Assembly: GCA_018435665.1 (NCBI GenBank)
Contig: JAHDND010000011.1
Coordinates: 62,001-126,000 of the forward strand
Reading direction: 5' to 3'
Source of the DNA: Candidatus Thiosymbion sp.
GTDB taxonomy: Bacteria; Pseudomonadota; Gammaproteobacteria; Chromatiales; Chromatiaceae
Length of the DNA: 64,000 nucleotides
Shown here: piece by piece, positions 12,261 through 61,317 of the stretch
Numbering within the stretch: the first letter of the stretch is position 1
Layout of the letters: every line of letters starts with the position of its first letter
The notes under the pieces: generated by a model
The model's database searches: none
Seen by the model: only the letters and a program-made list of their open reading frames with translations
What the model was told of the DNA's origin: nothing
Program-made: the position numbers and the translations under genes

Positions 12261-12351
12261 GGTCCTGACCATTTGCGTGAAGCACAGCAGGATGGGGGAA
12301 GTTTGACTATGCCAGCCCATCGGCAGTAGGGACATTATTCAGTATGCGGCA

Positions 12352-12473
12352 TCGAAAGGGAGGATCGGGTGGCGTCTGGTTGGGGTGGCGTCTGGCGGAG
12401 GTGTCGAACGCAGGGAGGCGGTCGTCAAGCCTCCAGGGACGGATTCAGGTTGTCCCCCGCCAGACGCCACCCT
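12352..12473 (+). repeat. Dispersed palindromic element, long form, diverged copy A
   Basis: Same orientation as the copy at 56104. Both ends carry GGTGGCGTCTGGCGG and its complement (12384 onward and ending near 12472), and the interior shares CAGGGACG and ATTCA blocks. The left end GGTGGCGTCTGG is duplicated once. The left flank (ATCGAAAGGGAGG) matches the short-form element at 37962. It lies in the gap between the tandem thioredoxin gene and nudE. Confidence 0.75.
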
Positions 12474-12509
12474 ACTCTAAAACACCGCACATTGATGGGC
12501 GATGACATA

Positions 12510-24978: not shown

Positions 24979-25083
24979 CGATTACAGTCATCGCACCTCA
25001 ATGTTCGGTATCCCCGGGTCGGATGGTTTACATCTGGGCCAGCACGTCACCCCCCCTGAGAACCTCGCGTGGAGAATCCAGCC

Positions 25084-29188: not shown

Positions 29189-29473
29189 TCACAGACCTCG
29201 CAGGTCAATTTGCGGTTTTTTCGGTTCGGGTGGCACCTGGGATGGGTGTCGTTCGCAAGGCTGCTGTCATCAGCCCTGCCGGGACGAATACGGTTGTCCC
29301 CCAGCTCCCCCGCCCCCTACCGATGCCGGAGAATGAGCTGCGAGGTCGCGATGTGCGGGGTGAGTTCGAACATCGGGTGCCCTTCAGGGGCGGTCCCTGC
29401 CACCGTCGGCTCTTGCGCGCTGCCCTCCGCCCCGATCCCCAACCCCTCATCCTTCGCGGGAGATTGTAACGCT

Positions 29474-37905: not shown

Positions 37906-37961
37906 AGCGTCCCATCGAAAACACAGGGAAAATAGCGGTCAGAAGGTATACATATCGCGTT

Positions 37962-38012
37962 TCAGTTTTCGGCCTCGATAGGGAGGGTCGGAAAAACCGA
38001 AAATTGAGATGC
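37962..38012 (+). repeat. Dispersed palindromic element, short form S1
   Basis: TCAGTTTTCGGCCTCGATAG, then GGAGGGTCGG and AAAAACCGAAAATTGAG. Outer arms TTTTCGG and CCGAAAA are inverted. The same outer sequence flanks the long-form copy at 43323, where about 95 bp of extra sequence sits after GGGTC. It lies between the Uma2 gene and folK. Confidence 0.75.
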
Positions 38013-38038
38013 AAAGTCCATAGCTTCAGCACCCCCTC

Positions 38039-38912: not shown

Positions 38913-40404
38913 GAAATCCTCTCCGCTCAGTGCCGATGAACTTATTGCCGCTCTTCCTCGCCATGGTAGGGGAGGCGGGGAGGATTACAACCCCGTCGCG
39001 GAACTGGCGGAGCGCGCAGGCGACATGCCCGCCGGCGACGAACGGGTCCGGCTGGCGGGCCAGACCAAAGACCGGGACCGGGACCGCGCCCGGGACTTGG
39101 AGCTGGACTTTCGTGGCGGGGCCAGCGTCCAACTGGATCTGGCCGCAGACGACCTGGCCCGGCTGACAGGCCAGACCAAAGACCGGGACCGCGACTTGGA
39201 GCTGGAATTTCGTGGCGTGGCTAGCGCCCACCGGGATCTGACCGCGGACGACCTGGCCCGGCTGGCGGTCCAGATCAAGGACTGGGGCCGGGAGCTGGGC
39301 TTTCAGCGGGTGGGTATCGCCGACCTGGACCTCACCGCGGACGAGGCACGGCTGGCGGCCTGGCTGGCCGCGGGCCGTCACGGGGAGATGGCGTACATGG
39401 CCCGTCATGGCACCCGGCGTACCCGCCCAGCGGAACTGGTACCCGGCACCCAGCGGGTGATCTCGGCGCGGATGGACTACCTGCCCGAAAATCCAGACCA
39501 GAGCGAGGCGCGGCTCAGGGACCCGGCCACGGCCTTCCTCTCCCGTTATGCCCTGGGCCGTGACTATCACAAGGTCCTGCGCCAGCGCTTGCAGTGCTTG
39601 GCCACGCGCATCCAGGACCAGATCGGGCCCTGCGGCTACCGCGTCTTCGTCGACTCGGCCCCGGTGATGGAAAAGGCCCTGGCGCAACAGGCCGGCCTGG
39701 GCTGGATCGGCAAACACACCAACCTGATCGACACCCGGGCGGGGTCCTGGTTCTTTCTGGGCGAGATCTACCTCGCCCTGCCCTTGCCGGTGGACCGCCC
39801 GGCGGCCAACCATTGTGGCCGTTGCCGGGCCTGCCTCGACGCCTGCCCCACCGGCGCCATCCTCGCCCCCTACGAACTGGATGCCCGCCGCTGCATCTCC
39901 TACCTCACCATCGAGCTCCAGGGCCCCATCCCGGAACCGCTGCGGCCCCTGATCGGCAACCGCGTCTATGGCTGCGATGACTGCCAACTGGTCTGTCCCT
40001 GGAACCGCTTCGCCCGCCTGACGGCGGAGGGGGATTTCCACCCGCGCCAGGGCCTGGACACCGCCACCCTGCTCGAACTCCTCGCCTGGGACGAGGCCGA
40101 GTTCCTGCGCCGCACCGAGGGCAGCGCCATCCGCCGCCTCGGTCATTGGCGCTGGCTACGCAATCTCGCCGTGGCCCTGGGCAATGGCCCCCCCCACCCC
40201 GCCGCCCTGGCGGCCCTGAGGGCCCGTCGCCACCACCTCAGCGACCTGGTGCGGGAGCATGTCGCCTGGGCCCTGGACCGCCTTCGCGACCGCCGGCGAG
40301 GCCCGGCCGCCATCAACAGCGCAGCAGATGCGCCCGATAGTGCCGCAACTCGGCGATCGACTCGCGGATGTCGGCCAGGGCCAGGTGGGCCGAGTCCTTC
40401 TTGA
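38911..40404 (+). CDS. queG: Epoxyqueuosine reductase QueG with N-terminal triplicated segment
   Basis: Cobalamin/[4Fe-4S] enzyme that makes queuosine from epoxyqueuosine in tRNA. Two cluster motifs are intact, [12 protein letters not shown] and [13 protein letters not shown], as are [24 protein letters not shown] and the HEAT-like C-terminus. At 497 residues it exceeds the usual 350-380. Residues 48-84, 85-117 and 118-147 are three copies of one segment (LA-Q-KD...D-TADDLAR); the last is the native N-terminal helix. The last 30 residues read across the 3' end of convergent orn. The true start may be 38911 or the ATG at 39025. Confidence 0.9.
39052..39351 (+). repeat. In-frame tandem triplication inside queG
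   Basis: Units at 39052-39162, 39163-39261 and 39262-39351 (37, 33 and 30 codons). Units 1 and 2 share CAGACCAAAGACCGGGACCG and GACGACCTGGCCCGG almost exactly. Unit 3 is the family-conserved copy. Confidence 0.8.
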
Positions 40405-43177: not shown

Positions 43178-43509
43178 GGTGATCACCCCCTAATGACGAT
43201 GGCCTGGAATTGGTGGCGGCAGCCAGGAATCCAAAGCCCCTGAGCGGTCCTGCCCTGGTTCGAAGGAGGGCACGAACTGGAGAGGGCGTGAAATGGACAG
43301 ATCCAAAGTCTTGGCACATCCATGCTCGGTTTTTCCGGGTCGGGTGGCGTCTGGCGGGGGACGCCGTGAATACGTCCCTGTAGGCTTGGCACCAGCATCC
43401 CTGCTGGTGACACCCCCTCCAGACGCCACTCGACCCTCCCTATCCAGGCCAAAAGCCGAAGCGCGAGTCTCTATTGGCATACCGCAACGGGTTGGGATAC
43501 CGGCAAGGG
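43178..43509. other. 332-bp intergenic region holding repeat copy B
   Basis: Apart from the dispersed element at 43323-43463, no gene, tRNA or clear promoter is seen. An apparent leftward open frame over the region is created by the repeat itself. Confidence 0.5.
43323..43463 (-). repeat. Dispersed palindromic element, long form, copy B
   Basis: The core 43337-43436 is 100 bp and matches the complement of the core at 56104-56203 at 97 positions. Terminal inverted arms of about 24 bp (GGGTCGGGTGGCGTCTGG inward) are near perfect. An inner hairpin CCAGCA-TCCC-TGCTGG is present. The flanks GGTTTTTCC and TCCCTATCCAGGCC match the short-form element S1, marking this as an S1-like site carrying extra core. 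Confidence 0.85.
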
Positions 43510-44067
43510 TCATGCCCGGGCTGGCAGCCTCCCTTCGGGGTGATGAAAATCCGGGGCGGGCGTGGGATGGCGCAAGGCCCAGTAACTTAGCCGGCCCGCG
43601 GCGTCCGCCACGACCGCCGTCAAACCCAGTTCCCAGTCGCGTCCCGCTGCAACGGCGGGCAAGAGCGCGGCTGGGACCCTGGCACGCAGGAGCCACTGGT
43701 GCCGGCGGCGCTCGCAATGACAGCTTGGTGCCTCTGCCGGCTCGGCCACCTGTGGCGGCGCCAGGGTGGTGCGGTATTCGGAAAAGGCATAGAGCGCCCA
43801 CTGGCCCGAGGGCGAGAAGTTGAACTCCCGGTAGCCGGTCTCCCGGCGGGCCCCGATGAAGGCCTCGCAACAGGTATGACGCCAGAGCCCGTCGACGCGA
43901 GCGGGCGCCGCCCTAGGCGGGATGATCAAGGCCCGCCGCGGCGCCGCCAGGCGGTAATCCACTAACAGGCCGTCCCGCTCGCTCCAGGTCCAGCGTGCCC
44001 ACAGGCTCGTGCCCGGTGGCCCGGGCGTGCCGGGATGAGGCGCCAGGGGTATCCAACGTCGCGCCAT
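43510..44067 (-). CDS. DOMON-like domain protein of unknown function
   Basis: 185 residues: LVDYRLAAPRR, VDGLWRHTCCEAFIG, YREFNFSPSGQWALYAFSEYR and SYWALRHPTPAPDFHHPE. These segments recall a conserved family described as DOMON-like in cyanobacteria and Chromatiales, possibly a beta-sandwich binding module. There is no signal peptide. The start at 44067 gives the conserved N-terminus; longer in-frame readings lack support. Nothing nearby suggests a role. Confidence 0.7.
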   Translation of the reverse strand: MARRWIPLAPHPGTPGPPGTSLWARWTWSERDGLLVDYRLAAPRRALIIPPRAAPARVDGLWRHTCCEAFIGARRETGYREFNFSPSGQWALYAFSEYRTTLAPPQVAEPAEAPSCHCERRRHQWLLRARVPAALLPAVAAGRDWELGLTAVVADAAGRLSYWALRHPTPAPDFHHPEGRLPARA

Positions 44068-44225
44068 AGGCTCAGATCTCGTTTCACAGCGACCGGGCCT
44101 CGTTCCACGAACCACCCCTTGTCCACCCCCGGGGCTGGTCCCTGAAATCCCGCGCCACCTTGACGCCAGACGCCTGGCTACCCATTTCCTGCTCATTCGC
44201 GATCACATCCTCAGGAGAAAAGCTC

Positions 44226-44567
44226 ATGACTGCCGTCGCCAATGCCGCCACCCAACTGGAGGCCTTGCTGGCGAAAGGGCCCGATACGGCCCTGTTACGT
44301 TACAGCCTGGGCAACGAATATCTCAAACAAGGCGATCTGGACCGGGCGATCGAGCATCTGGCCGCCGCCACCCGCCTCGATCCCCGCTATTCCGCCGCCT
44401 GGAAACTCCAGGGCAAGGCCCTTCAGGCCGCCGGTCGACCGGTCGAGGCCATCGCCATCCTCGACCGGGGTATCCAGGTCGCCGAGGAGCGGGGCGACAT
44501 CCAGGCCGCCAAGGAGATGCGAGTCTTCCACCGGCGCGCCCTGAAGGAACTGGAGGCCGCCCACTGA
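44226..44567 (+). CDS. Small tetratricopeptide-repeat protein
   Basis: 113 residues with two to three TPR units: LLRYSLGNEYLKQGDLDRAIEHL, AWKLQGKALQAAGRPVEAIAIL and a degenerate third ending in EMRVFHRRALKEL. AGGAGAAAAGC precedes the ATG. A protein-protein interaction role is inferred; no partner is identified. Confidence 0.85.
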   Translation: MTAVANAATQLEALLAKGPDTALLRYSLGNEYLKQGDLDRAIEHLAAATRLDPRYSAAWKLQGKALQAAGRPVEAIAILDRGIQVAEERGDIQAAKEMRVFHRRALKELEAAH

Positions 44568-44630
44568 TACCAGTGGCGCCTACCCCCATAACAATCGTGG
44601 TCACTACGTCAAGCCCAACGCGTTACGAGA

Positions 44631-45617
44631 TCAGCGCACCTGGGGCTGCCCCAGCCCGGTCACGGCGATCAGGCTGTTGGCCAAGGCCGTGCCCATCCGG
44701 TCGGCGAGCCGTTCGAGGAGGTCCTTCTTGGCGGTGAACTCGACCAGCTTTTCAGCGCCGATGACGTCCCGGGCCACGGATTCCGGACTCCCGAGGTGAT
44801 CCGCCAGACCCAGCTTGAGGCTCTCGGCGCCATTCCAGAACAGGCCACTGTAGATCTCCTCACCCCCGGTGAGCTTCTCGCCCCGTCCCTCGCGCACCGC
44901 GGTGATGAACTGCTGGTGCAACTGATCCAACTGGCCCTGGAGGAAAGTCTTCTGCGCCTCCGTCATGGGGGAGAAGGGATCGAGGATCCCCTTGTTGGCC
45001 CCGGCGACGAGGAGGCGGCGCTCGACGCCTAGGTCCGTCATGGCCTGCTCGAAGCCAAAGGCATCCAGGCGCACCCCGATGGAACCGATCAGGCTGGCCT
45101 TGTCGACATGGATGGCCTCCGCCGCCACCGCGACATAGTAGCCGGCGGAGGCGCAGAGGTCGGCGACCACGGCATGGACCGGAATGTCGTTGTGCTTCTC
45201 CCGCAGGCGACGGATCTCGTCGTTGATCTGACCCGCCTGCACCGGGCTGCCCCCCGGGGTGTTGAGGCGCAGAATGATGCCCTTGGTGTTCTTGTCCTCG
45301 TAGGCCTTGCCCAGGGCGGTGATGACCTCCGTGGCGCTGGCCGGGGTGCCGGCGGCCATGACGCCCTTGATGTCGATCACCGCCGTATGCTTCTCCGCGG
45401 GGGTCAGGCCCTCCACCACCTTGTCCTCCCAGAAGAGCCCCAGCAGGGCGAAGAGATAGGCAAAGGTCAGCAGCTTGAAGGCCAGGCCCCAACGTCGGCT
45501 ACGGCGCTGCTCCCGCAGGCTCTCGGTCACCACCCGTTCCACCAGGCCCTGCTCCCAGCCCGGCTCGCCCGGCCCCGGTCCCTGAGGGACGTTCTTTTTC
45601 CAAAATCTGAGCTTCAT
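44631..45617 (-). CDS. sppA: Signal peptide peptidase SppA, short form
   Basis: Membrane-bound serine protease that digests cleaved signal peptides. It has 328 residues. One membrane helix lies at about 46-63. The S49 catalytic Ser157 is in DLCASAGYY, and the Lys general base lies in the following GANKGILDPFSP segment. RLNTPGGSP forms the oxyanion strand. This is the 36-kDa archetype with one S49 domain, unlike the 67-kDa E. coli form. Confidence 0.92.
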   Translation of the reverse strand: MKLRFWKKNVPQGPGPGEPGWEQGLVERVVTESLREQRRSRRWGLAFKLLTFAYLFALLGLFWEDKVVEGLTPAEKHTAVIDIKGVMAAGTPASATEVITALGKAYEDKNTKGIILRLNTPGGSPVQAGQINDEIRRLREKHNDIPVHAVVADLCASAGYYVAVAAEAIHVDKASLIGSIGVRLDAFGFEQAMTDLGVERRLLVAGANKGILDPFSPMTEAQKTFLQGQLDQLHQQFITAVREGRGEKLTGGEEIYSGLFWNGAESLKLGLADHLGSPESVARDVIGAEKLVEFTAKKDLLERLADRMGTALANSLIAVTGLGQPQVR

Positions 45618-45764
45618 GTCATCTCCAACGGCAAATCAAGACAGGGCAACCCGTGCCTGAGGGCGGCGTCCTTGACACGGGGTGTGGGTGGGATTGGACA
45701 AAATTCGGTCTTTACGGGGCGGAAACAATCCCCGGGCAACCGGGCCAACTCACCCCAGGGTCTG

Positions 45765-47495
45765 CTAGCGTTCGGTCCAGAGCCCATAAACCGCCGGCAG
45801 GGGCCTGCGCAATCCATGGCCGAGGAACAGGCGCAACTCGATCTCCGGCCGCCCGCCCCGGCCCACCGCGGTGGTTGGCAGCTCTTCCAGCGACTCGAAA
45901 TAGTCTGCCAGGGCCGGCAGGACCCGAGCGACCTGCTCGCTGGGGCCCATCAGCAGGGCATCCTGGCCAACGAAGTTCCCCAGGTCCTGGCGAAAGGCGA
46001 AATGCCGCTGGTCAGGACCAAAGACCACCACCGGCAGGGCACCGCCGAGGCCATGGTCGAGTTTGCCACCCGTGATCCAATGCGGTGCCAGGACAAAGAG
46101 CCCCGGACGTTCAAGCAAGCCCCGGGCCTGGAGTTCCGGACGCAGGGACGTCCACTCCAGGGCCTCCAGGGTCGGGTCCTTGGCCAGGAGCGTGGGGAAC
46201 CAGACCCGTCCCAGACCGGTGGCGGCATGGCCCACGGCGATGAACACCAGACCGACCAGGGCCGCCCCCGAAGCCAGGGCCCAGCGCCGGGGCCAGGTGG
46301 CCCGGCGTGCCGCCGTCGCCAGCCAGGCCCCGAGCAGGGGATAGAGCATCAGCCAGCCGGGCATCTGCCAATGCGGCAGGCCTCGGCTCCCCCAGAGCGG
46401 CACCAGGGTGAAAATCGCCAGGGTGGGCAGGGCCAGGCAGAGCAAAAACCAGGAGCGCTCGACCCCAGGGCCCCGACGCAGGGCGCCCCAGGCGGCGATG
46501 ACCAGGGGAACGAAGACCCAGGGCAGGATCCACCCCATCTGACCGGCGATGTTCGCCAGCACCTGGTCGAAGCGAATCCCCTGGGGCAGACCACGCCCCG
46601 ACTGAAAGGCCAGGGAGACCCAGTCGTGCTGGGCATTCCACACCAGGGCCGGTGACACCACCAGGAGGGCGATGAGCGCCCCCACCCAGGGGGCGGGGTG
46701 GCGCAGCAGCCGACGCCGCGACGGCAGGCTGAGGAGATAGCCCAGCAGTCCCAGGGCGAACAAGGCGGCGTGGTACTTGGACAGGCCCGCCAGACCGAGC
46801 CAGAGACCGGCCAGGGGCCAGGTCCTCCAGGGGGAGGGGACGGAAAGGGTTGAGCCAGGCGGATGGGCGTGGTTGGCGGAATAAGCTTGATCGGCGGGAT
46901 GGGCGCGATTGGCGCGATCGGGGGGGTTGGTAGGACGGGCTTGATCCGCGGGATGGACCAGATCAGTGGGATCGGCGGGACGGACATGACCCGCGGGATG
47001 GGCGGAATCGGCGAAATCGGTGGCCCCCGCGGCATTGGGTAACAGCCCCCTCGCCAGGGTCAGGGCGGCGGCCAGCAAGCAGAACTGCAAGGGCCCATCC
47101 GGCACCAGTCCCCCGCCCGAGAGGGTGTAGAAGGCGGACAGATTGAGGGCGATCACCGCCCACACCCCGGCCTGGGCCCCAAACAGGTGCCGTGTCAGGG
47201 CAAAGAGCAGCCAGGAAGAGCCGGCAAAGAGCAGCACGAAGGGCAGTCGCGCCGCCCGTCCCTCCCCCAGCCAGGGGGTCATGGCATGGATCAGCCAGTA
47301 ATGTAGCGGGGGATGATCGAAATAGGACAGCGACAGGTCACGGGCGCTGGCCAGGGTATAGGTCTCGTCGACCCCCAGTCCCAGGGTCGCGGCGATCAGC
47401 AGGCGAAAGACCAGGAAGAAGCCGATCAGCGCCAGGACCAGCCGTTCCGGATGGGGAAAGTCACTGGATGATGGCAGGGATGCAGGGGGAGGCAT
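45765..47495 (-). CDS. GT39-type (ArnT/PMT-like) membrane glycosyltransferase with a low-complexity insert
   Basis: 576 residues with about ten or more hydrophobic helices. The GT39/GT83 catalytic Asp lies in VDETYTLA, and SYFDHPPLHYWLIH follows. The enzyme would move a sugar from a polyprenyl-phosphate donor to lipid or protein at the periplasmic face. Residues 155-218 are a repetitive hydrophilic insert (HPADQA, HPAGHV, DRANRAHPAD) in a loop that should be short. Its DNA at 46850-47030 is a degenerate GGCGGGATGGGCG-like array. A second GT39 gene lies at 49666-51507. Confidence 0.85.
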   Translation of the reverse strand: MPPPASLPSSSDFPHPERLVLALIGFFLVFRLLIAATLGLGVDETYTLASARDLSLSYFDHPPLHYWLIHAMTPWLGEGRAARLPFVLLFAGSSWLLFALTRHLFGAQAGVWAVIALNLSAFYTLSGGGLVPDGPLQFCLLAAALTLARGLLPNAAGATDFADSAHPAGHVRPADPTDLVHPADQARPTNPPDRANRAHPADQAYSANHAHPPGSTLSVPSPWRTWPLAGLWLGLAGLSKYHAALFALGLLGYLLSLPSRRRLLRHPAPWVGALIALLVVSPALVWNAQHDWVSLAFQSGRGLPQGIRFDQVLANIAGQMGWILPWVFVPLVIAAWGALRRGPGVERSWFLLCLALPTLAIFTLVPLWGSRGLPHWQMPGWLMLYPLLGAWLATAARRATWPRRWALASGAALVGLVFIAVGHAATGLGRVWFPTLLAKDPTLEALEWTSLRPELQARGLLERPGLFVLAPHWITGGKLDHGLGGALPVVVFGPDQRHFAFRQDLGNFVGQDALLMGPSEQVARVLPALADYFESLEELPTTAVGRGGRPEIELRLFLGHGLRRPLPAVYGLWTER

Positions 47496-47534
47496 GGTGA
47501 TTGGACAACTCAGGAGGAGACGAGATGGGATAGG

Positions 47535-47639
47535 ATGGATGTTATCAAGCTAGATGATATCAACCGCATGCATGAGGGTGCCCCGCCCTTCCCCATCGAC
47601 GCCGAAAACGGAGATACCTCGTCTATAACCAGACGGTAA
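47535..47639 (+). CDS. Possible 34-residue leader peptide before the AlbA-domain gene
   Basis: ATG at 47535 opens a frame starting MDVIKLDDINRMHEG and closing with TAA 4 nt before the next gene's start. GGATAGG sits just before it. It could be a short translated leader, a small antitoxin-like product, or the remnant of a larger gene. The supporting signal is only spacing and codon sense. Confidence 0.35.
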   Translation: MDVIKLDDINRMHEGAPPFPIDAENGDTSSITRR

Positions 47640-47643
47640 GAGC

Positions 47644-48852
47644 ATGCTGACACCAGAACAGTTACAAACCCTGCTGGCGGATCTCGAGTCCGATCGCATC
47701 GAGCGCACGACATCGACCAAGGATACCGACAAGTTTGCTCAGGCCGTCTGTGCCTTTGCGAATGATCTGCCCAATCATGACCAACCCGGCTTTCTGGTCA
47801 TTGGCGTCAACGATCAAGGGCGGCCATCCGGTCTCGAAGTCACCGATCAGCTCCTGCAAAACTTGGGCGCCCTGCGCTCGGATGGGAATATTCAGCCACT
47901 GCCGGCCCTGATCGTGGGTAAGGTTTCCTTGCCGGGCGGCGACGTCGCGGTGGTCCAAGTCCGGCCGTCCGATCTGCCACCCGTTCGTTACAAAGGCCAG
48001 GTCTGGATTCGGGTCGGGCCACGCAAGGCCATCGCCAGCGAACAGGAAGAACGTATCCTGATCGAGCGTCGCATTGCCCAGGCCCGCAGCTTCGATGCCC
48101 AGCCTTGCGTGGAAGCGGCCCTCAGCGACCTCAACGATGAACGATTCCTCCTCGGCTACCGCAAACGGGTCATCGCCGAGGACGTCATCGCCGCCAACGG
48201 GCGCACACTGGCGCAACAACTGGCCGGATTGCGGTTTTTCGACCTGCGGCGCAACTGTCCCACCCATGCGGGGGTGCTGCTGTTCGGTAACGCGCCGACC
48301 TTCTTCCTGCCGGGCGCCTATGTCCAGTTCCTGCGCCTGGCGGGAACCGAGCCGACCAGCGACGTGATCGACGAAAAGCGTCTCGCTGGTGACCTCATCA
48401 CCGTCTTGCAGACCCTTGATCTGCTGATCGACGTCAACATTCGCCAGCGTCCGGTTTATGTGTCGAGCCTGCGCGAGGAAACTTTCGCCGATTACCCGAA
48501 AACGGCCGTCCGCGAACTGCTGCTCAATGCCATCATGCACCGCAACTACCAGTCAAATGCGCCGGTGCGCTTTTACTGGTATGCCGATCACATCGAAATC
48601 ACCAACCCCGGTGGCCTGTACGGGGAGGCGATCGGTCACTTTCCCGAACGCAATGATTACCGCAACCCGGTCATTGCCGAGGCCATGCGCGCCCTTGGTT
48701 ATGTCAACCGATATGGGCAGGGCGTGCTGCGTGCCCGCAAGGCACTGCTTGACAACGGCAACCCACCCGCCGACATCCGGCCGGAAAGCGACTGGTTCAG
48801 CGTGCGGATCGACGAACCGCAAGGCGGCGCTCACCCCGGGGGCACGCCTTGA
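47644..48852 (+). CDS. AlbA_2 (Schlafen-like) domain ATP-binding protein
   Basis: 402 residues. The N-terminal AlbA_2/AAA_4 domain shows RIERTTSTKDTDKFAQAVCAFAND and GFLVIGVND. The C-terminal GHKL-like ATP-binding and winged-helix region shows AVRELLLNAIMHRNY and GGLYGEA...YRNPVIAEAM. Related proteins are annotated as ATP-dependent helicase RecG-like or transcription regulators and occur in accessory or defence regions. Codon use appears less GC-skewed than in neighbouring genes, consistent with acquisition. Confidence 0.85.
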   Translation: MLTPEQLQTLLADLESDRIERTTSTKDTDKFAQAVCAFANDLPNHDQPGFLVIGVNDQGRPSGLEVTDQLLQNLGALRSDGNIQPLPALIVGKVSLPGGDVAVVQVRPSDLPPVRYKGQVWIRVGPRKAIASEQEERILIERRIAQARSFDAQPCVEAALSDLNDERFLLGYRKRVIAEDVIAANGRTLAQQLAGLRFFDLRRNCPTHAGVLLFGNAPTFFLPGAYVQFLRLAGTEPTSDVIDEKRLAGDLITVLQTLDLLIDVNIRQRPVYVSSLREETFADYPKTAVRELLLNAIMHRNYQSNAPVRFYWYADHIEITNPGGLYGEAIGHFPERNDYRNPVIAEAMRALGYVNRYGQGVLRARKALLDNGNPPADIRPESDWFSVRIDEPQGGAHPGGTP

Positions 48853-48883
48853 GCCGCCGTAACCGCCCTTGTCGTCATCGCGC

Positions 48884-48935
48884 ATCAGATTCGGTTTCCC
48901 CGACCCGCCCTATCCATGCCGAAAACTGACAAGCG
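48884..48935 (-). repeat. Dispersed palindromic element, short form S2, fused into the PAP2 gene
   Basis: The complement reads TCAGTTTTCGGCATGGATAG, then GGCGGGTCGG and GGAAACCGAATCTGATGC, matching S1 at about 34 of the first 39 positions. It encodes the final 15 or so residues and the stop codon of the PAP2 protein. Confidence 0.75.
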
Positions 48936-49688
48936 GGATCCATACAACCCCCAGGCCAACAGGGCGAGGATGAACCAGGAGATAAGTATGTCGCTGAAAA
49001 AATGCCCCCCGGCGGCCAGGCGCGCCCAGGCCACCAGCAGACTGTAGCCAACCGCCAGACCCAGCCAATACCGCCGCCGGGGCCCCTGGGCCAGGACCAA
49101 GGCGACCACCACCCAGTAGGCAGAGCCGGCGGCATGACCGGAGCTGAAGGATTTTCCGCCCTGATCGCTGACCACGAAGGCCGGGGTGAAGACCTGGGTG
49201 CCGCCAAAGTCCTCGCAGTTCACCGGCCGGGCCCGGCCCCACTGCTCCTTGAGGAGACCGTTGACGATCAGTCCGGGACCCAGGGCCAGGACCAGGAGCA
49301 GATAGGCCAGGTCGCGCCCGCTCAGGGTGAATCGGCCGGGACGGGGGCTGGTATTGGGAACACGGCCCCCAACCTTGCGATTGACCCACCAGAGGCCGAT
49401 CAGGGCCGGCACCCCCAGGATCAGCAACCAGTAGGTGGATTCATGCACCAGGCGCTCGAACCAGGTCCCCCGGGCGGTAAAGCCCACCCCTGGGGTGTAG
49501 AAGAGATTGGAGACGGCCAGATCTATCCCCGGGAACAGGACCAGCAGCAGGCTGATGCCGAGAAAGGCCAGCCAGAGCCAGCGGGGAGCGTACAAAAAGG
49601 GGCGTCCCAGCCATCGTGACCAACGGGGAGGTGACACGGCAGCAGCATCCTGCGAGGGATCGGCTTCAGAGGATTGGTTCAGGGACAT
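48885..49688 (-). CDS. PAP2-family membrane phosphatase
   Basis: 267 residues with six predicted membrane helices and the three PAP2 signature motifs: KEQWGRARP, SFSSGHAAGSA and R-x5-GGHFFSDI. The expected role is dephosphorylation of a lipid phosphate or pyrophosphate such as undecaprenyl-PP. It overlaps the upstream GT39 gene by 23 bp on the same strand, which links lipid-carrier recycling to glycosyl transfer. The C-terminal tail is encoded by a dispersed repeat. Confidence 0.9.
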   Translation of the reverse strand: MSLNQSSEADPSQDAAAVSPPRWSRWLGRPFLYAPRWLWLAFLGISLLLVLFPGIDLAVSNLFYTPGVGFTARGTWFERLVHESTYWLLILGVPALIGLWWVNRKVGGRVPNTSPRPGRFTLSGRDLAYLLLVLALGPGLIVNGLLKEQWGRARPVNCEDFGGTQVFTPAFVVSDQGGKSFSSGHAAGSAYWVVVALVLAQGPRRRYWLGLAVGYSLLVAWARLAAGGHFFSDILISWFILALLAWGLYGSRLSVFGMDRAGRGNRI

Positions 49689-51507
49689 AGCGCACGAGCC
49701 ACCAACGATGAAGGGGGGCGGCACAGGGTTCCGGCCGCTCGGTTACGGCCTCCCGCAGGCCCTCGCGCAGACAGTCATAGAGGAGACGCTGCCGCTCGAT
49801 CTGAAACCCCGGAATGCCGGGACGATAGGGATCGCGGCTCAGCAGCCAGAAGCCGCCGGCCCTGGCCACCGCCGCCGGATCGACCGTGGGCCGCAGGCGG
49901 CCGCGCAGATACTCCGAGGGACGAAACAGGCCCGGCCACTGGCTGATCTCCAGCCCCGGGGCATGGAAGCGCATCATCGCCACCAGTTGGTAGCGGTCGG
50001 CGAACAGGGGGCCGGGGAGGTCCTTCACCTCCTCGGCCAGGGCCGCAAAGCCATGGGTCTCGTAGAGGATGCGCTGCTGCTTGTCCGGCAGGGGCAAGAG
50101 GCCGGTGCGGGCATGGAAGACATAGACGCTGACCAGCAGCAGGTTGATTAGGGCCGCGATCAGCATGGCCTTGGCGACGCGCTGCATGACCAGGGCCAGC
50201 AGGGGGATGGCCGTCAGCAGATAGAGGATGGCCCAGTTCGGCTGGACGGGGCTGAAGGCCGCCACCAGGGCGAAGAAGCCCAGGGGGAAGAGGGTCCCGG
50301 CGACCAGCAGGGCCCGGGCGGGACGATCCTGAAGACCTAGGGGTACGGAATGATGCATGTGGCCGGATGAGACGGCATGAGCATCATGTGTGCCCAGGGA
50401 GGACGCAGGAAGAGCCTGGCTCCATAGCGATGCGTGACGATCCGGGCGCTGGTTGGAGACGGGGTGATCCAGACTTTGGACCTTGAGGTTGCTTCCCGCC
50501 ACGGTGCCCGGAATGCCGGGAAGCACGTTGACCGCGGGGATGAAATCAGCCGGCGGAACTTCGACCGGGATGACCCTGGGAGAACGCCGGCGCCAGGACA
50601 GCCAGATCCCCGCCAGCAACGGCAGGAGCATGCAGCCCCAGAGGGCGGCCTGAATGCCCAGAAAACTCAGGACCGCCATCAGCCGCTCCCCCAGCCCGGC
50701 TCCCGCCAAGGGCGAGACGCGCGTGGGGAGGGCCATGATCGCCCCGGTGGCGGCATCGGCCACCCCGGCGCTGGTGGAAAAGCCGTGCCCGAACTGGAAG
50801 CGCAGGGCCAGCCAGTCGTTATGGGCATTCCAGACCAGGTTGGGGGCGAAGACCAGCAAGGCCGCCAGGGCCCCCAGGTAGGGCCAGGGGGTGCGCAGGG
50901 CCCGGGGGTCGGCCCAGAGGATGGCCCAGAGAAAGACTGGACCGATCAGGGCCATGCCATACTTGCCGAGCAGGCCCAGCCCGGTGGCGAGACCCGCCGT
51001 CACCCAGCGGCGGCGGTCACCGCGCAGGGCGGCCAGGGCCTCGTGCAGGGCCAGGGCCCAGGCCAGGGCCAGGGGGGTGTCCGGGGTGGCCAGGACACCG
51101 GAGATCAGCCCACCGAAAGTCGCGGCAGTCACCACCAGGGCCAGAAACTGCTGTTGCGGGGTCAAGCCGCAGGCGCGGTAGAAGCGGATCAGCACCCACA
51201 GGGTCAGGGTCGCGGCGAGCAGATTGCCCAACCGGCCCGCCAGGGCCGAGGCGGGGGCCAAGCAGGAGCCAATTGCCAGGAGGGCAACCCCCGGGGGGTG
51301 ATCGAAATAGCCCCAGTCCAGGCGGCTCGCCCAATCGATGTAATAAGCCTCATCCTGGGTCACCGGCAGCAGCCAGGCCGCCCCCAGCCGCCAGAGGCTG
51401 ATGAGGGCGAAGGCCAGCCACAGCCAGCGGATGGCGGGATCCGCGGCCCAGGGCGGCGGTCGGCTCGCGGGCGGAAGGTCGGGTGAAGAGCTGTTGGTTT
51501 TACCCAT
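49666..51507 (-). CDS. GT39-type (ArnT-like) membrane glycosyltransferase
   Basis: 613 residues, polytopic. The N-terminus has QDEAYYIDWASRLDWGYFDHPPGVALL (catalytic Asp and the DHPP loop), the signature of ArnT/PMT transferases that use polyprenyl-phosphate sugars. A stretch of about 80 residues from IPVEVPPADF to SVPLGLQDRP separates two helix bundles and looks hydrophilic and weakly conserved. The gene overlaps the PAP2 gene and is divergent from the polyprenyl-phosphate glycosyltransferase at 51658, its probable donor synthase. Confidence 0.88.
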   Translation of the reverse strand: MGKTNSSSPDLPPASRPPPWAADPAIRWLWLAFALISLWRLGAAWLLPVTQDEAYYIDWASRLDWGYFDHPPGVALLAIGSCLAPASALAGRLGNLLAATLTLWVLIRFYRACGLTPQQQFLALVVTAATFGGLISGVLATPDTPLALAWALALHEALAALRGDRRRWVTAGLATGLGLLGKYGMALIGPVFLWAILWADPRALRTPWPYLGALAALLVFAPNLVWNAHNDWLALRFQFGHGFSTSAGVADAATGAIMALPTRVSPLAGAGLGERLMAVLSFLGIQAALWGCMLLPLLAGIWLSWRRRSPRVIPVEVPPADFIPAVNVLPGIPGTVAGSNLKVQSLDHPVSNQRPDRHASLWSQALPASSLGTHDAHAVSSGHMHHSVPLGLQDRPARALLVAGTLFPLGFFALVAAFSPVQPNWAILYLLTAIPLLALVMQRVAKAMLIAALINLLLVSVYVFHARTGLLPLPDKQQRILYETHGFAALAEEVKDLPGPLFADRYQLVAMMRFHAPGLEISQWPGLFRPSEYLRGRLRPTVDPAAVARAGGFWLLSRDPYRPGIPGFQIERQRLLYDCLREGLREAVTERPEPCAAPLHRWWLVRYVPEPIL

Positions 51508-51657
51508 CGCGAAAGGTGCAGTGGCCGTGGGTCCGGCGGTCAGGCCCCAAGCCGGGTCCAGGGACCAGGGGAGGCCGGCTGTCCGGTATCAGGGGCATAG
51601 CTTACAATAGTCCCGCCCGCGGAGAGCCGCCGGCACTCGCCACAGGAATCCGCCGCC

Positions 51658-52782
51658 ATGTCCGATCCGTCCCCGACCCGGGGCCCCTGCCCTCCCCCCG
51701 AGCTGGCCATCGTCATCCCGACCTTCAACGAGGCGGGCAACGTGGCGGAGATCGCCCGGCGCATCGGGGCCAGTCTGGAAGGGATCGCCTGGGAGATCAT
51801 TTTCGTCGACGACGACTCCGCCGACGGCACGGCGGAGCGGGTGCGCGAACTCGCCCGCGCGGACAGCCGCATCCGCCTGCTTCGCCGGGTCGGCCGGCGC
51901 GGCCTCTCCTCCGCCTGCATCGAGGGCATGCTGGCGACCACCGCTCCCTTCCTGGCGGTCATCGACGCCGACCTCCAGCACGACGAGACCCTGCTGCCCC
52001 GGATGCTGGCATGTCTCCAGGCCGAGGACCTGGACATCGTCGTCGGTAGCCGCTACGTCAGCGGCGGCAGCGTCGGCGACTGGAACGAGCACCGCCAGGC
52101 CATGAGCCGCTTCGCCAGCCGTCTGGCCCAGCGCCTGATCCACGCCGACCTCGCCGATCCCATGAGCGGCTTCTTCATGCTGCGGGCCCCAGTGCTGGCG
52201 GCCTGCGTGGGCGACCTGAGCGGCGTTGGCTACAAGATCCTGCTCGACCTCTTCGCCTCCTCCCCGCGGCCGCTGAAATTCGCCGAGCTTCCTTACGGCT
52301 TCCGCCAGCGCGAGCACGGCGAGAGCAAGCTCGACAACGCCGTGCTCTGGGAGTACGCGCTGATGCTGCTGCAAAAGCTCATCGGCCCACGCATCCCGGT
52401 GCGCTTCATTGCCTTCTCGCTCATCGGCGGCTCCGGCGTGCTGGTGCATCTGGGGGTACTCTGGCTGCTCAACCGCCTGCTCGGCACCTCCTTCCTCATC
52501 GGCCAGGCCGTCGCCGCCCTGGTGGCCATGACCACCAACTTCTTCCTCAACAACGTGCTGACCTACCGCGACATGCGCCTGCGCGGCCGGCAACTGCTCT
52601 GGGGCTGGTTCTCCTTCGTCATCGCGTGCAGCATCGGCGCCATCGCCAACGTCGGCATCGCCACCTACCTGTTCGAGGGCGACACCGGCTGGGTCCTCTC
52701 CGCCCTGGCCGGCATCCTGGTGGGGGCCGTCTGGAACTACGCCGTCACCGCCGTCTACACCTGGCGCGGCAAGGCCGGGTGA
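51658..52782 (+). CDS. Polyprenyl-phosphate glycosyltransferase, GT2 (DPM1-like) with GtrA-type C-terminus
   Basis: 374 residues. The N-terminal GT2 domain shows IVIPTFNEAGNVAEI (19-33), the DDDSADGT loop and the metal-binding DADLQHDE. The last 130 residues form four GtrA-like membrane helices (FIAFSLIGGSGVLVHLGVLWLL onward). The enzyme is expected to make undecaprenyl- or dolichyl-phosphate sugar at the inner membrane and help flip it, feeding the two GT39 transferases. Confidence 0.9.
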   Translation: MSDPSPTRGPCPPPELAIVIPTFNEAGNVAEIARRIGASLEGIAWEIIFVDDDSADGTAERVRELARADSRIRLLRRVGRRGLSSACIEGMLATTAPFLAVIDADLQHDETLLPRMLACLQAEDLDIVVGSRYVSGGSVGDWNEHRQAMSRFASRLAQRLIHADLADPMSGFFMLRAPVLAACVGDLSGVGYKILLDLFASSPRPLKFAELPYGFRQREHGESKLDNAVLWEYALMLLQKLIGPRIPVRFIAFSLIGGSGVLVHLGVLWLLNRLLGTSFLIGQAVAALVAMTTNFFLNNVLTYRDMRLRGRQLLWGWFSFVIACSIGAIANVGIATYLFEGDTGWVLSALAGILVGAVWNYAVTAVYTWRGKAG

Positions 52783-52916
52783 GGGAGACCCCGGCGTGCA
52801 ACAATTGACCATCCTGTTCCAAAGCTCCCCCATGACCGCCACTCGCTTGTTGACGGTTTCGACCAACTCGCCTGCCTATCGAGCACCACCGCTGCTCCCC
52901 GGATACCTAGCGCCCC

Positions 52917-54389
52917 ATGAGTGACCCCTTCGCCACCTTCGATCTCCCGGAGCCTCTGCTGCGGGGCCTGGACAAACTGGGCTTCAGTGAACCGACGCCG
53001 GTCCAGCGGCAGGTCATCCCCCTGGCCAACGACGGCGCCGACCTGCTGGTGACCGCCGCCACGGGCTCGGGGAAGACCCTGGCCTTCCTCCTGCCCATGC
53101 TGCGGCGCTTTCTGGCCGCGCCAGCACCCCGGACGGGCATCCGCGCCCTGGTCCTGGTTCCGACCCGGGAACTGGCCTATCAGATCCAGGAGCACTTCCT
53201 CCAGGTCGCCAGCTTCACCCGCCTCACCGCCGGCGTCATCGTCGGTGGGGTGGCCGCCAGCCATCAGGTCAATACCCTGCGCCGCAACCCGGATATCCTC
53301 ATCGCCACCCCGGGGCGGTTGCTCGACCACCTGGAGCGGGGCGCCACCGATCTGGGCGACCTGGAGTTCCTGATCCTGGACGAGGCCGACCGCATGCTCG
53401 ACATGGGCTTCGCCCCGGACGTGATGCAGATCATCCAGACCTGCAACGAGGAGCGCCAATCCCTGCTCTTCTCCGCCACCCTGAGCCGCGGCGGGCTGCA
53501 ATCCTTCATCGACGCCGCCCTGCGCGACCCCCAGCGGGTCCAGGTGGACCATCACCGAGCCGCCCACCCCGACATCCGTCACCAGCGCCTGCTGGCGGAT
53601 GACCTGGACCACAAGCGGACCCTGCTGCTGGCCTATCTCACCCAGGGCGAGAGCGAAGCGGGCGACCAAATAACCGTTACCCCCCCCTCTCCCCAACTCT
53701 CCCCCGTCATAGAAGAGGGAGAAGAAGAAGCAGCGGATCGTGCCACCGCCGCCATCCTGGCCCATGCGGGGTCTGACGGCATACCAGACAAGATCCTCAT
53801 CTTCAGCAATACCCGCGAACAGGCGACGGCCCTGGGCCATTTCCTGATCGGCAAGGGCCAGCGGGCCGCGATTCTTCACGGCGAACTGGAACAGCCCGAA
53901 CGCGTCCGGGTATTGAACTTGCTCCGCGAGGGGCGGATTCGCATCCTGGTCGCCACCGACGTGGCCGCCCGCGGTCTGGACGTCCCCGGCATGGACCTGG
54001 TGATCAACTTCGAGGTCCCCCGCAGCGGCAGTGATTATCTCCATCGTACCGGCCGCACCGGGCGGGCCGGCGCCCCGGGCCTGGCCATCACCCTGGTCAG
54101 CCCGCCGGAATGGAACCGCATGGAGAGCATCGAGCGTTATCTCCAGCTCGACCTGCACCCCCTGAGCCTTCCCGGCCTGGCGGGTCATTACCAGGGGCCG
54201 ACCCGCTCCCGTTCACCGCGAAAGAAGATCCACGGCCAGGCCCCCAAGCCCGCCACCACCCAGGCGCCCAAGGTCAAAGAACGTCACCGCGACCGGAAAA
54301 ACATCGGCAAGCGCCGCCTGCCCTCCCGGCCCGCGGCTGAGGGGAGTACCGAGGCCGGCCTCACCCCACCCAAGCGTACGCCGGGCTGA
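52917..54389 (+). CDS. DEAD-box RNA helicase with in-frame palindromic insert
   Basis: 490 residues: Q motif FSEPTPVQRQ, Walker A AATGSGKT, ILDEADRMLDMG (DEAD box), SAT and [13 protein letters not shown] with HRTGRTGRAG, then a basic tail (RSRSPRKKIHGQ). It resembles the RhlE/SrmB group; the exact orthologue is uncertain. Residues about 255-272, between the two RecA domains (TPPSPQLSPVIEEGEEE), are encoded by a palindromic repeat at 53679-53724 and are not part of the helicase fold. Confidence 0.9.
   Translation: MSDPFATFDLPEPLLRGLDKLGFSEPTPVQRQVIPLANDGADLLVTAATGSGKTLAFLLPMLRRFLAAPAPRTGIRALVLVPTRELAYQIQEHFLQVASFTRLTAGVIVGGVAASHQVNTLRRNPDILIATPGRLLDHLERGATDLGDLEFLILDEADRMLDMGFAPDVMQIIQTCNEERQSLLFSATLSRGGLQSFIDAALRDPQRVQVDHHRAAHPDIRHQRLLADDLDHKRTLLLAYLTQGESEAGDQITVTPPSPQLSPVIEEGEEEAADRATAAILAHAGSDGIPDKILIFSNTREQATALGHFLIGKGQRAAILHGELEQPERVRVLNLLREGRIRILVATDVAARGLDVPGMDLVINFEVPRSGSDYLHRTGRTGRAGAPGLAITLVSPPEWNRMESIERYLQLDLHPLSLPGLAGHYQGPTRSRSPRKKIHGQAPKPATTQAPKVKERHRDRKNIGKRRLPSRPAAEGSTEAGLTPPKRTPG
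53679..53724 (+). repeat. Palindromic C-rich repeat inserted in a coding region
   Basis: CCCCCCTCTCCCCAACTCTC, then CCCCGTCATAGAAGAGGGAG. It has the same left half as the intergenic copy at 61178-61217. The frame is kept, so the helicase gains about 16 residues. Confidence 0.6.
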
Positions 54390-54462
54390 GGGGCAGTGCC
54401 CGTCACCGGAACCTTTCAGTTCCAGTCACCGGTAGCCCTCCAGTCCCAAACTACGAAGCCCC

Positions 54463-56010
54463 ATGTCCCTGCCCTACATCACCGACCTGCAAGTCCCCCG
54501 GCATGACGCCAGCATCCCGGCCCTCCAGGCCTTGTTCGCCTCGCTGTGCGCCAGCCTAGGGATCTCGGATGGCATACGTCGACAGGTCGAGCTGGCCCTG
54601 GAGGAGGGGATCGCCAACTTTTTCAAACACGCCATGCCGGCGGGGGTGGATGCGCCCGTCAAGCTGCGGATCGAATTCCAACCGGACGCCATCCGCCTGG
54701 TAGCCAGGGCCCCGGGCCGGCCCTTCGACTTCAGCCACCTGCCCCATTACCAGGCCCCCCATTCCCTGCAAGAGACCCCCCAGGGCCTGGGCACCTTCCT
54801 CATCGAACAGGTCATGGACAGCGTCAACTGGCGCTATGTCGCCAAGGAAGGACAGGAATTCGAGATGATCAAGCGGCTGCCGGCGGCGCTCGCCCCGGAC
54901 CGCGACGACAGCCAACTCCAGCCCGAGCGAGTGGGCGTGCGCATCCAGGGCGCCATCAGCTACCGCCGCCTGCAAACCGCCGAGGAGGCCCTCGCCCTGG
55001 CCAGCGCCGCCTGGGACCTCTATGGTTATGGCTACAAGGAGGTCATCTACTACCCGGAACTGGTCCTGCAACAGGTCCGCTCCGGCCAGCTCCTGTCCTG
55101 GATCGCCCGCGACGAGGCGGGGCAGATCCTGGGCCATTACGCCATGCTGCGGCACCGCCCCGACGACCCCCTGGGGGAGATGGGCGCCGCCTTCGTCCTG
55201 CCGGAGGCGCGCCAGGCCGGGGTCTTCCGCCAGCTTTCCGACCGCCTCCACGCCGATGCGCGCCATAGTGGGGTGCGCGCCCTCTATTCCCTGTCGGTGA
55301 CCAATCACATCGCCACCCAGAAGATCAGCCAGGAGGCTGGCCGCATCACCGTCGGCCTGCGCCTGGGGTCCACGCCGGCCATCTTTGTCGAGGGGGCCAG
55401 GCCGGGGGAGCGCATCACCACCACCCTGAATTACGATCAGCTCGCCACCCGGCCCAGCCGGATCATCTACCCGCCACCCCGCCATCGGGACCTGATCCTG
55501 CGCAGCTATGGCTGGCTGGGATTGAGCGTGACCACCCCGGACCCCGAAGCCCCGCTCCCCTCCAGCCCCGCGGAAGGCCCGGGCGATTACCTGCACTGCC
55601 ACCGCGACCTGACCTGGAACCGGGCCCTGATCGACGCCGCCGGCGGGGAGGGGGTGCGCTATAAACTGGCCGCCTTTACCGAGTTCCTGACCGAACAAGG
55701 GATTGCCTGCATCCAGCTCGCCCTCGACCTCGAGGACCCCGGTACGCCGGCCCTCACCGCCGCGGCGGAGGACCTGGGATTCTTCTACTCCGGCATCTTC
55801 CCGGAGAGCGGCCCCGGCGGCCATGACATGCTGGAACTTCAGTTCCTCAACGGCATCTCGATCGATCTGGACCAGATACGGCTGTATCAGCCCTCTGGCC
55901 AGGCGATCATGGCGTATCTCAAAACCTTGCCGGGCGTTGAGCGTGTCCGGTCGGGTGGCGCTCTGGTTCGCGGTGGGGTTGGGGATTGGGGCGGTGCTGT
56001 GGTTGGGTAG
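54463..56010 (+). CDS. Fusion of a HATPase_c_2 (anti-sigma-like) domain with a GNAT acetyltransferase domain
   Basis: 515 residues. The N-terminal 140 show the GHKL N-box VELALEEGIANFFKHAM (Glu and Asn52), a G-box-like APGRPFDF and GLGTFLIEQVMDSVNW, as in serine-kinase anti-sigma factors. Residues about 160-320 form a GNAT-like domain (LSWIARDEAGQILGHYAMLR, VLPEARQAGVFRQLSDRL), and a further domain of unknown type follows. A signalling role is inferred. The final 25 residues (VRSGGALVRGGVGDWGGAVV) are low-complexity and probably not conserved. It lies 73 bp after the helicase gene. Confidence 0.75.
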   Translation: MSLPYITDLQVPRHDASIPALQALFASLCASLGISDGIRRQVELALEEGIANFFKHAMPAGVDAPVKLRIEFQPDAIRLVARAPGRPFDFSHLPHYQAPHSLQETPQGLGTFLIEQVMDSVNWRYVAKEGQEFEMIKRLPAALAPDRDDSQLQPERVGVRIQGAISYRRLQTAEEALALASAAWDLYGYGYKEVIYYPELVLQQVRSGQLLSWIARDEAGQILGHYAMLRHRPDDPLGEMGAAFVLPEARQAGVFRQLSDRLHADARHSGVRALYSLSVTNHIATQKISQEAGRITVGLRLGSTPAIFVEGARPGERITTTLNYDQLATRPSRIIYPPPRHRDLILRSYGWLGLSVTTPDPEAPLPSSPAEGPGDYLHCHRDLTWNRALIDAAGGEGVRYKLAAFTEFLTEQGIACIQLALDLEDPGTPALTAAAEDLGFFYSGIFPESGPGGHDMLELQFLNGISIDLDQIRLYQPSGQAIMAYLKTLPGVERVRSGGALVRGGVGDWGGAVVG

Positions 56011-56103
56011 GCGGTAGTGCGCTCGTAACTCCCCCCGCTCCCGGATGGGCAAGATGAAGTTGGGATCTTCCGGATGTAGCCGACTTTTTAGCCGCGTCGA
56101 GGA

Positions 56104-56203
56104 GGGTCGGGTGGCGTCTGGCGGGGGTGTCGCCAGCAGGGATGCTGGTGCCAAGCCTACAGGGACGTATTCACGGCGTCCCCCGCCAGACGCCACCCGA
56201 CCC
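56104..56203 (+). repeat. Dispersed palindromic element, long form, copy C
   Basis: 100 bp bounded by perfect 24-bp inverted arms starting GGGTCGGGTGGCGTCTGG. The interior hairpin is CCAGCA-GGGA-TGCTGG. It is inverted relative to copy B (three differences in 100) and parallel to copy A. It lies in the gap between two convergent genes. Confidence 0.9.
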
Positions 56204-60868: not shown

Positions 60869-61317
60869 GGCCTGGTCCTGAAGAGTGATCCCCAGGCCGC
60901 CCGAGCGGCCGGAAACCGGTCAGAGGCGGCCGAAGGTCCAACGCGGCGTCCCCGCTATCGGTCGGACCCGCGCCAGACCAGATCGGGAATGATGCCCCTC
61001 ATATTACGCCAAGGCGTCGGGGCTTCGGGGCATGAGGCCCCGCCCCAACAGGCTTGCCCCCAAGCCTGCTGCTAACCTTCTCGTGCTTCGGGGCATGACG
61101 CCCTGCCCCGATCCTGGGACAATGCCGGGGACGCCTCCCGTCCGTCACGGCATTCTTACCCATGAGTAACCCTTCAGCCCCCTCTCCCCAACCCTCCCCC
61201 ACCAGGGGGGAGGGAGTAAGAGATGCAGCGGTTGATGTTGTAGAAGCTGCATGATGTACGTGAGGGGTCTGAACGGTTACTCCTTTTGTACTGGCTGTTT
61301 TGATTTGGAGCCGCCTT
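60869..61317. other. 449-bp repeat-rich region between the sensor kinase and the RDD gene
   Basis: No gene is seen. It contains two 25-bp direct repeats at 61022-61046 and 61085-61109 (starting GCTTCGGGGCATGA, 23 of 25 identical). A perfect hairpin CAGGCTTG-CCCC-CAAGCCTG lies between them (61049-61068), and the C-rich palindromic repeat follows at 61178-61217. Confidence 0.6.
61178..61217 (+). repeat. Palindromic C-rich repeat, intergenic copy
   Basis: CCCCTCTCCCCAACCCTCCC followed by CCACCAGGGGGGAGGGAG: complementary C and G runs form a hairpin. It shares its left half with the insert in the helicase gene at 53679. Confidence 0.65.

Follow-up and report, generated by a model that had tools for sequence, protein, structure and literature searches.

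A non-coding MITE-like, YPAL-type hairpin repeat of Candidatus Thiosymbion carries a tip module found across Gammaproteobacteria and possibly bound by CsrA/RsmA

What is the palindromic element that recurs in this part of the Candidatus Thiosymbion genome, does it move, and why would its center be conserved? The window, that is, the whole stretch of 64,000 nucleotides analyzed here, had been described in a first-pass annotation as holding five copies of a MITE- or REP-like palindrome in long and short forms, and all five are present. Copy A is a full unit on the plus strand (43304..43473), composed of a left terminal repeat (43304-43336), a core (43337-43436), and a right terminal repeat (43437-43473). 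Its tip, a two-hairpin module with the inner arm pairs, occupies 43352..43423 (+) and scores 92.4 bits against our covariance model R1; the GGA loops of copy A are on the strand complementary to this interval. The core of copy B lies at 56104..56203 on the minus strand (tip, 56117-56188; 91.6 bits with R1), and the two cores are indeed inverted copies with 97% identity. The outer sequence reported around the cores flanks the copy at 43337 but is undetectable at 56104. The diverged copy previously placed at 12352-12473 is a long form on the minus strand (12329..12509, limits approximate; tip, 12391-12462; 76.6 bits), in which a piece of one arm is duplicated. The short forms noted at 37962 and 48884 are also real, and they are larger than described, spanning ~37944..38027 (−) and ~48870..48945 (+) with terminal repeats that had been left undescribed; in both, the outer repeats enclose a core apparently deleted down to GACCC. 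The count of five missed a decayed full unit at ~29190..29347 (−; tip, 29236-29303), which gave a weak match of 20.3 bits (E = 0.0017), and two remnants, one in which the left outer repeat runs into the beginning of an arm (GGGTCGGATGG; 24980..25015, +) and one with the right outer repeat alone (47587..47630, +). The window also holds a separate pair of 54-bp repeats, 80% identical and unrelated to the hairpin family (53683-53736 and 61178-61231; CCCCCTCTCCCCAAC...), and an open frame that contains tandem 99-bp repeats (39031-39294).

A search of the Chromatiaceae-like host genome (5.0 Mb, 263 contigs) with the covariance model of the tip returned 134 core copies at E ≤ 1e-3, far more than had been reported from the window, and the same model found 66, 63, and 72 copies in three congeners. 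The arm GGGTGGCGTCTGGCGG, with up to two mismatches allowed, occurred 229 times in the genome versus 14 times for a reversed-pattern control. These arm counts, together with the 134 copies found by the tip model, indicate that the repeats are not due to chance. The full unit measures ~170 bp and has no open reading frame; from the outside inward, it consists of TA-ended terminal inverted repeats (TATAGTCATCGCAC...TTTTCGG), palindromic arms (GGGTCGGGTGGCGTCTGGCGGGG), and a tip of ~55 nt formed by two hairpins. Among 96 distinct core copies analyzed, both outer repeats were found in 54, one in 24, and none in 18. Two cores adjoin each other almost in tandem at L068:8074-8256 (host contig C156), as if one had inserted beside an existing hairpin. 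All 92 copies that could be placed are intergenic, between codirectional (58), convergent (21), or divergent (13) genes; the gene calls came from a simple codon-usage caller, which recovered all 15 of its training genes. Convergent contexts are commoner, and divergent ones rarer, than intergenic length predicts for the placed copies.

The short form had been read as an empty or a collapsed site. Across 17 short forms, the outer repeats are retained, and the junction between them is GACCC in 10 and differs in the other 7. GACCC with TCC after it is the end of the core itself, and the same core ends occur in sister genomes without the outer sequence. Because GACCC is the terminal sequence of the core itself and the remaining junctions vary in a deletion-like manner, the short forms look like units from which the hairpin was deleted, in many cases between the CCG repeats found at the hairpin base. 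Thus, of the two possibilities, a collapsed site fits better than an empty one.

Comparison with sister genomes, as the first-pass annotation had suggested, provided evidence of mobility. Full units were absent at all five orthologous sites compared in sister genome G002 (copy A, two sites in locus L084, and two in locus L092), where the G002 segments near the sites are mostly 82 to 94% identical to the host; the full unit of copy A is also absent from the orthologous site in genome G001. One core-only copy is common to the host and G002. The second copy in L084 fits insertion at TA (GTTA/TACACATC...GACTA/TG in the host versus GTTA/CTGT), at a single site with diverged flanks. Statistics on core copies detected no target duplication longer than TA and nothing beyond the TA ends; since TA belongs to the ends of the element, such statistics cannot show a TA duplication. 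Terminal inverted repeats, the lack of an open reading frame, more than 100 intergenic copies, full units specific to each lineage, the five absences, and the one TA-compatible site bear out the MITE-like description. IS630-type MITEs such as RUP are likewise short and non-coding, with terminal inverted repeats and TA at their ends. They differ from the present family, for which no parent insertion sequence with matching ends was found and which has a class-wide structured tip.

Which transposase moves the element? One IS630-type (DDE_3) gene and one Y1 gene were detected in the host genome, and neither is bordered there by element ends, arms, or tips. The IS630-type gene was rejected as the parent, as its flanks carry other ends. 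It lies at L306:1000-2500 (host contig C78), its frames split and overlapping around a T run, ~350 bp from a core-only copy, and its ends weakly resemble those of the element. The search of the host genome thus yielded no parent insertion sequence or REP-associated transposase with the same arms, which counts against a MITE reading as well. Were the repeats REP/REPIN elements moved by a RAYT transposase, their palindromic shape, intergenic placement, and high copy number would follow, as would the GTAG present in most tips and the single Y1 transposase gene. However, GTAG is replaced by GGAG, with a compensating change, in a large subfamily, and the hairpin units, at ~170 bp, are much longer than REP/REPIN; nor is a RAYT gene linked to them, the Y1 gene having no arms, tips, or ends at its borders. 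The REP-like half of the original description was therefore not supported, and we regard this origin as most improbable. Carriage by phage was also rejected for want of a phage match, the lone match to a viral contig being a YPAL-like copy.

The closest described relative is the YPAL/RU-2 element of Yersinia, the sequence of which is printed in PMC2759123. The tip is homologous to the center of YPAL/RU-2, with a local score of 24 versus at most 16 in 500 shuffles, and model R1, built without Enterobacterales, found a YPAL-like copy at 61.7 bits. YPAL/RU-2 (~168 bp) shares the two-hairpin center, the long palindromic arms, and an intergenic, multicopy, and mobile habit with the present repeats, whereas its arms and ends are different; it has been described without TA ends and with target duplications of 3 to 26 bp, in contrast to the TA ends and absence of any longer detectable duplication seen here. 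Taken together, these data make it very probable that the repeats are both MITE-like and of the YPAL type. The tip module is also contained in the consensus of the Yersinia sRNA Ysr224 (Rfam RF02770). There, however, the scores are 24 to 36 bits, short of the gathering score of 70, and Rfam treats Ysr224 as an sRNA, not as a repeat, modeled on the strand opposite to that of the GGA loops. Ysr224 figures in a published list of the commonest sRNA families (PMC9029176), and Yersinia ruckeri has several differently expressed copies (PMC12112432). No known RNA family matched the repeat at the Rfam gathering score, and low-scoring miRNA matches were dismissed as palindrome artifacts. In the open-access literature, we found no published account that treats these repeats as a single family spanning the class, and one string of the tip sequence turned up in two papers, neither of which, to judge by its title, concerns repeats.

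Small bacterial repeats are usually private to one genus, whereas the tip of this one is class-wide. An exact search for the 29-mer GACGCCGTGAATACGTCCCTGTAGGCTTG across 84,980 species genomes gave 95 stretches, and all 80 of the stretches listed (80 of 95) are gammaproteobacterial, with hosts that include Ectothiorhodospira, Thioalkalivibrio, Methylotuvimicrobium, Methylocucumis, Halopseudomonas, Marinobacter, and Lysobacteraceae, among others. In our survey, the module was found in 50 of 276 gammaproteobacterial genomes, representing 46 of 216 genera. The arms and terminal repeats around it differ between lineages: an Ectothiorhodospiraceae MAG (12 copies), Methylotuvimicrobium, and MAG Ifr-MOX-184 each surround the tip with terminal inverted repeats of their own, and among these three, TA at the ends is clearest in the Ectothiorhodospiraceae MAG. 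The tip itself covaries, with 94.1% of cells paired and 468 double-changed cells. The covariation score was 0.617 versus 0.169 for shuffled and at most 0.104 for slid controls in an alignment fitted to the model, and a MAFFT alignment (A2) agrees (0.476 versus 0.147 for the control). The repeats have the tip in common with YPAL and Ysr224, and across Gammaproteobacteria covariation has preserved it while the arms and ends around it are unrelated. A second structured module, a hairpin with a CANGGANG loop followed by one with a GCAGGAGC loop, sits inside hairpin b or is repeated nearby, on the strand opposite to the main GGA loops; it was seen at L141, L143, L152, L178, L187, L191, and L193 (Methylotuvimicrobium buryatense/Methylococcales type) and at L115:6781-6852 (Halopseudomonas).

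Could the identity of tips in distant genera merely reflect recent horizontal transfer of a sequence with no function? Identical 29-mers in distant genera would fit, as would YPAL-like copies on conjugative plasmids. Enterobacterial plasmids do carry a related tip copy, for example, at L312:2491-2563 in Citrobacter plasmid NZ_CP039328.1, near IS26 and ISKpn26 genes, and such conjugative plasmids are a possible route of spread. Nevertheless, lineages have unrelated arms around the tip, and variation in the tip comes with compensating changes at paired positions, which are seen in part along vertical lineages; a tip without function is accordingly very unlikely in our assessment.

A candidate partner is suggested by the tip loops. 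On the minus (complement) strand, both loops read C-A-N-GGA-N-G, with the C, A, GGA, and closing G conserved at 96 to 100% and the two N positions at 60 to 74% in the alignment. CANGGANG is present on the complement strand in hairpin a of 70 and hairpin b of 50 of 78 sequences. An ANGGAN hexaloop is the recognition criterion of CsrA/RsmA (PMC7652899, PMC3791407), and both complement-strand loops are ANGGAN hexaloops closed by C-G. One CsrA/RsmA dimer bridges sites 10 to 63 nt apart (PMC7652899), a range that includes the 20 nt between the GGA motifs of copy A, as read from its sequence. The host genome has a csrA gene. In Methylococcales and Halopseudomonas, hairpin b may hold inserted hairpins, again with ANGGAN and CAGGAG loops, one of which reads UUACAUGGAUGUAA. 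The GGA is unpaired in the consensus fold, and host-genome copies allow an alternative helix that pairs one GGA, which speaks against CsrA binding. An alternative hairpin, GGGACG/CGTCCC, was rejected as the conserved fold since it does not persist through changes of the loop base. Rare variants are weakly depleted at GGA (P = 0.011 versus the arms and 0.12 versus the rest of the tip, with cells that are not independent), and the CsrA loop motif was recognized after the alignment had been seen. Moreover, GTGAA and GGCTTG, which the CsrA reading does not explain, are as conserved as the GGA loops, and the modeling of Ysr224 on the other strand also counts against this reading. On balance, CsrA binding as the reason for conservation of the tip, argued from loop sequence and spacing, is a real possibility that falls somewhat below an even chance.

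Strand preference, considered as support for a role in RNA, was not seen: relative to codirectional neighbor genes, 33 copies are sense and 25 antisense, and comparable counts of G-T and A-C give no clear sign of which strand is under selection. The lack of strand bias and the similar wobble types on both strands would suit a tip that acts as DNA, with a hairpin that is extruded in single-stranded DNA, binds a mobility or replication factor, and is kept for the copying of the element. Strong folding of the tip as DNA (z = −5.3) and the turnover of arms and ends between lineages point the same way. Yet the tip is central and far from the ends, on which a transposase acts, short forms lacking the tip keep those ends, and the analysis found no conserved nuclease or transposase in linkage with the tip, which leaves a DNA-level role rather unlikely. 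The hairpin might instead be a general signal for RNA stability or processing (an RNase III or RNase E target or a 3′-end protector) without CsrA, a role proposed for YPAL and ERIC (PMC2229807) and also for NEMIS. Stable folding, intergenic placement, and a surplus of convergent and shortage of divergent contexts relative to the expectation from intergenic length agree with such a signal; a generic stem, however, would not need identical loop and linker sequences across orders, and we consider this role unlikely.

We propose, at nearly even confidence, that the repeat is a MITE-like, non-autonomous hairpin element whose conserved tip has a regulatory role of the CsrA/RsmA type. A transposase supplied in trans would insert the element at TA, and some copies would lose the hairpin by deletion and so collapse to short forms. 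The tip would be kept for its two ANGGAN hexaloops, 20 nt apart, which may be offered to one CsrA/RsmA dimer when the minus strand is transcribed. Each copy would thereby equip a transcript with a CsrA site, and the many copies could jointly act as a dispersed CsrA sponge. Sponges of the CsrB/RsmZ type similarly present ANGGAN hairpin loops, with two sites at bridging distance, but each is encoded by one dedicated sRNA gene, whereas here the candidate binding sites are on dispersed mobile repeats. No paper linking CsrA with a MITE was found in the open-access literature.

What makes this family interesting is the module and its possible partner rather than the repeats themselves. The tip ties together YPAL, the sRNA Ysr224, and unnamed repeats of many orders, and a class-wide center amid turnover of all surrounding sequence suggests that the host cell contains a conserved partner. 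A wider reading, to which we give somewhat less than an even chance, is that unrelated gammaproteobacterial MITE families share one CsrA/RsmA-binding double hairpin, seeding up to hundreds of sites per genome and titrating or rewiring the regulator; YPAL and Ysr224 of Yersinia would then be the branch already described. Should CsrA prove to be the partner, mobile elements would be disseminating sites at which a global regulator binds.
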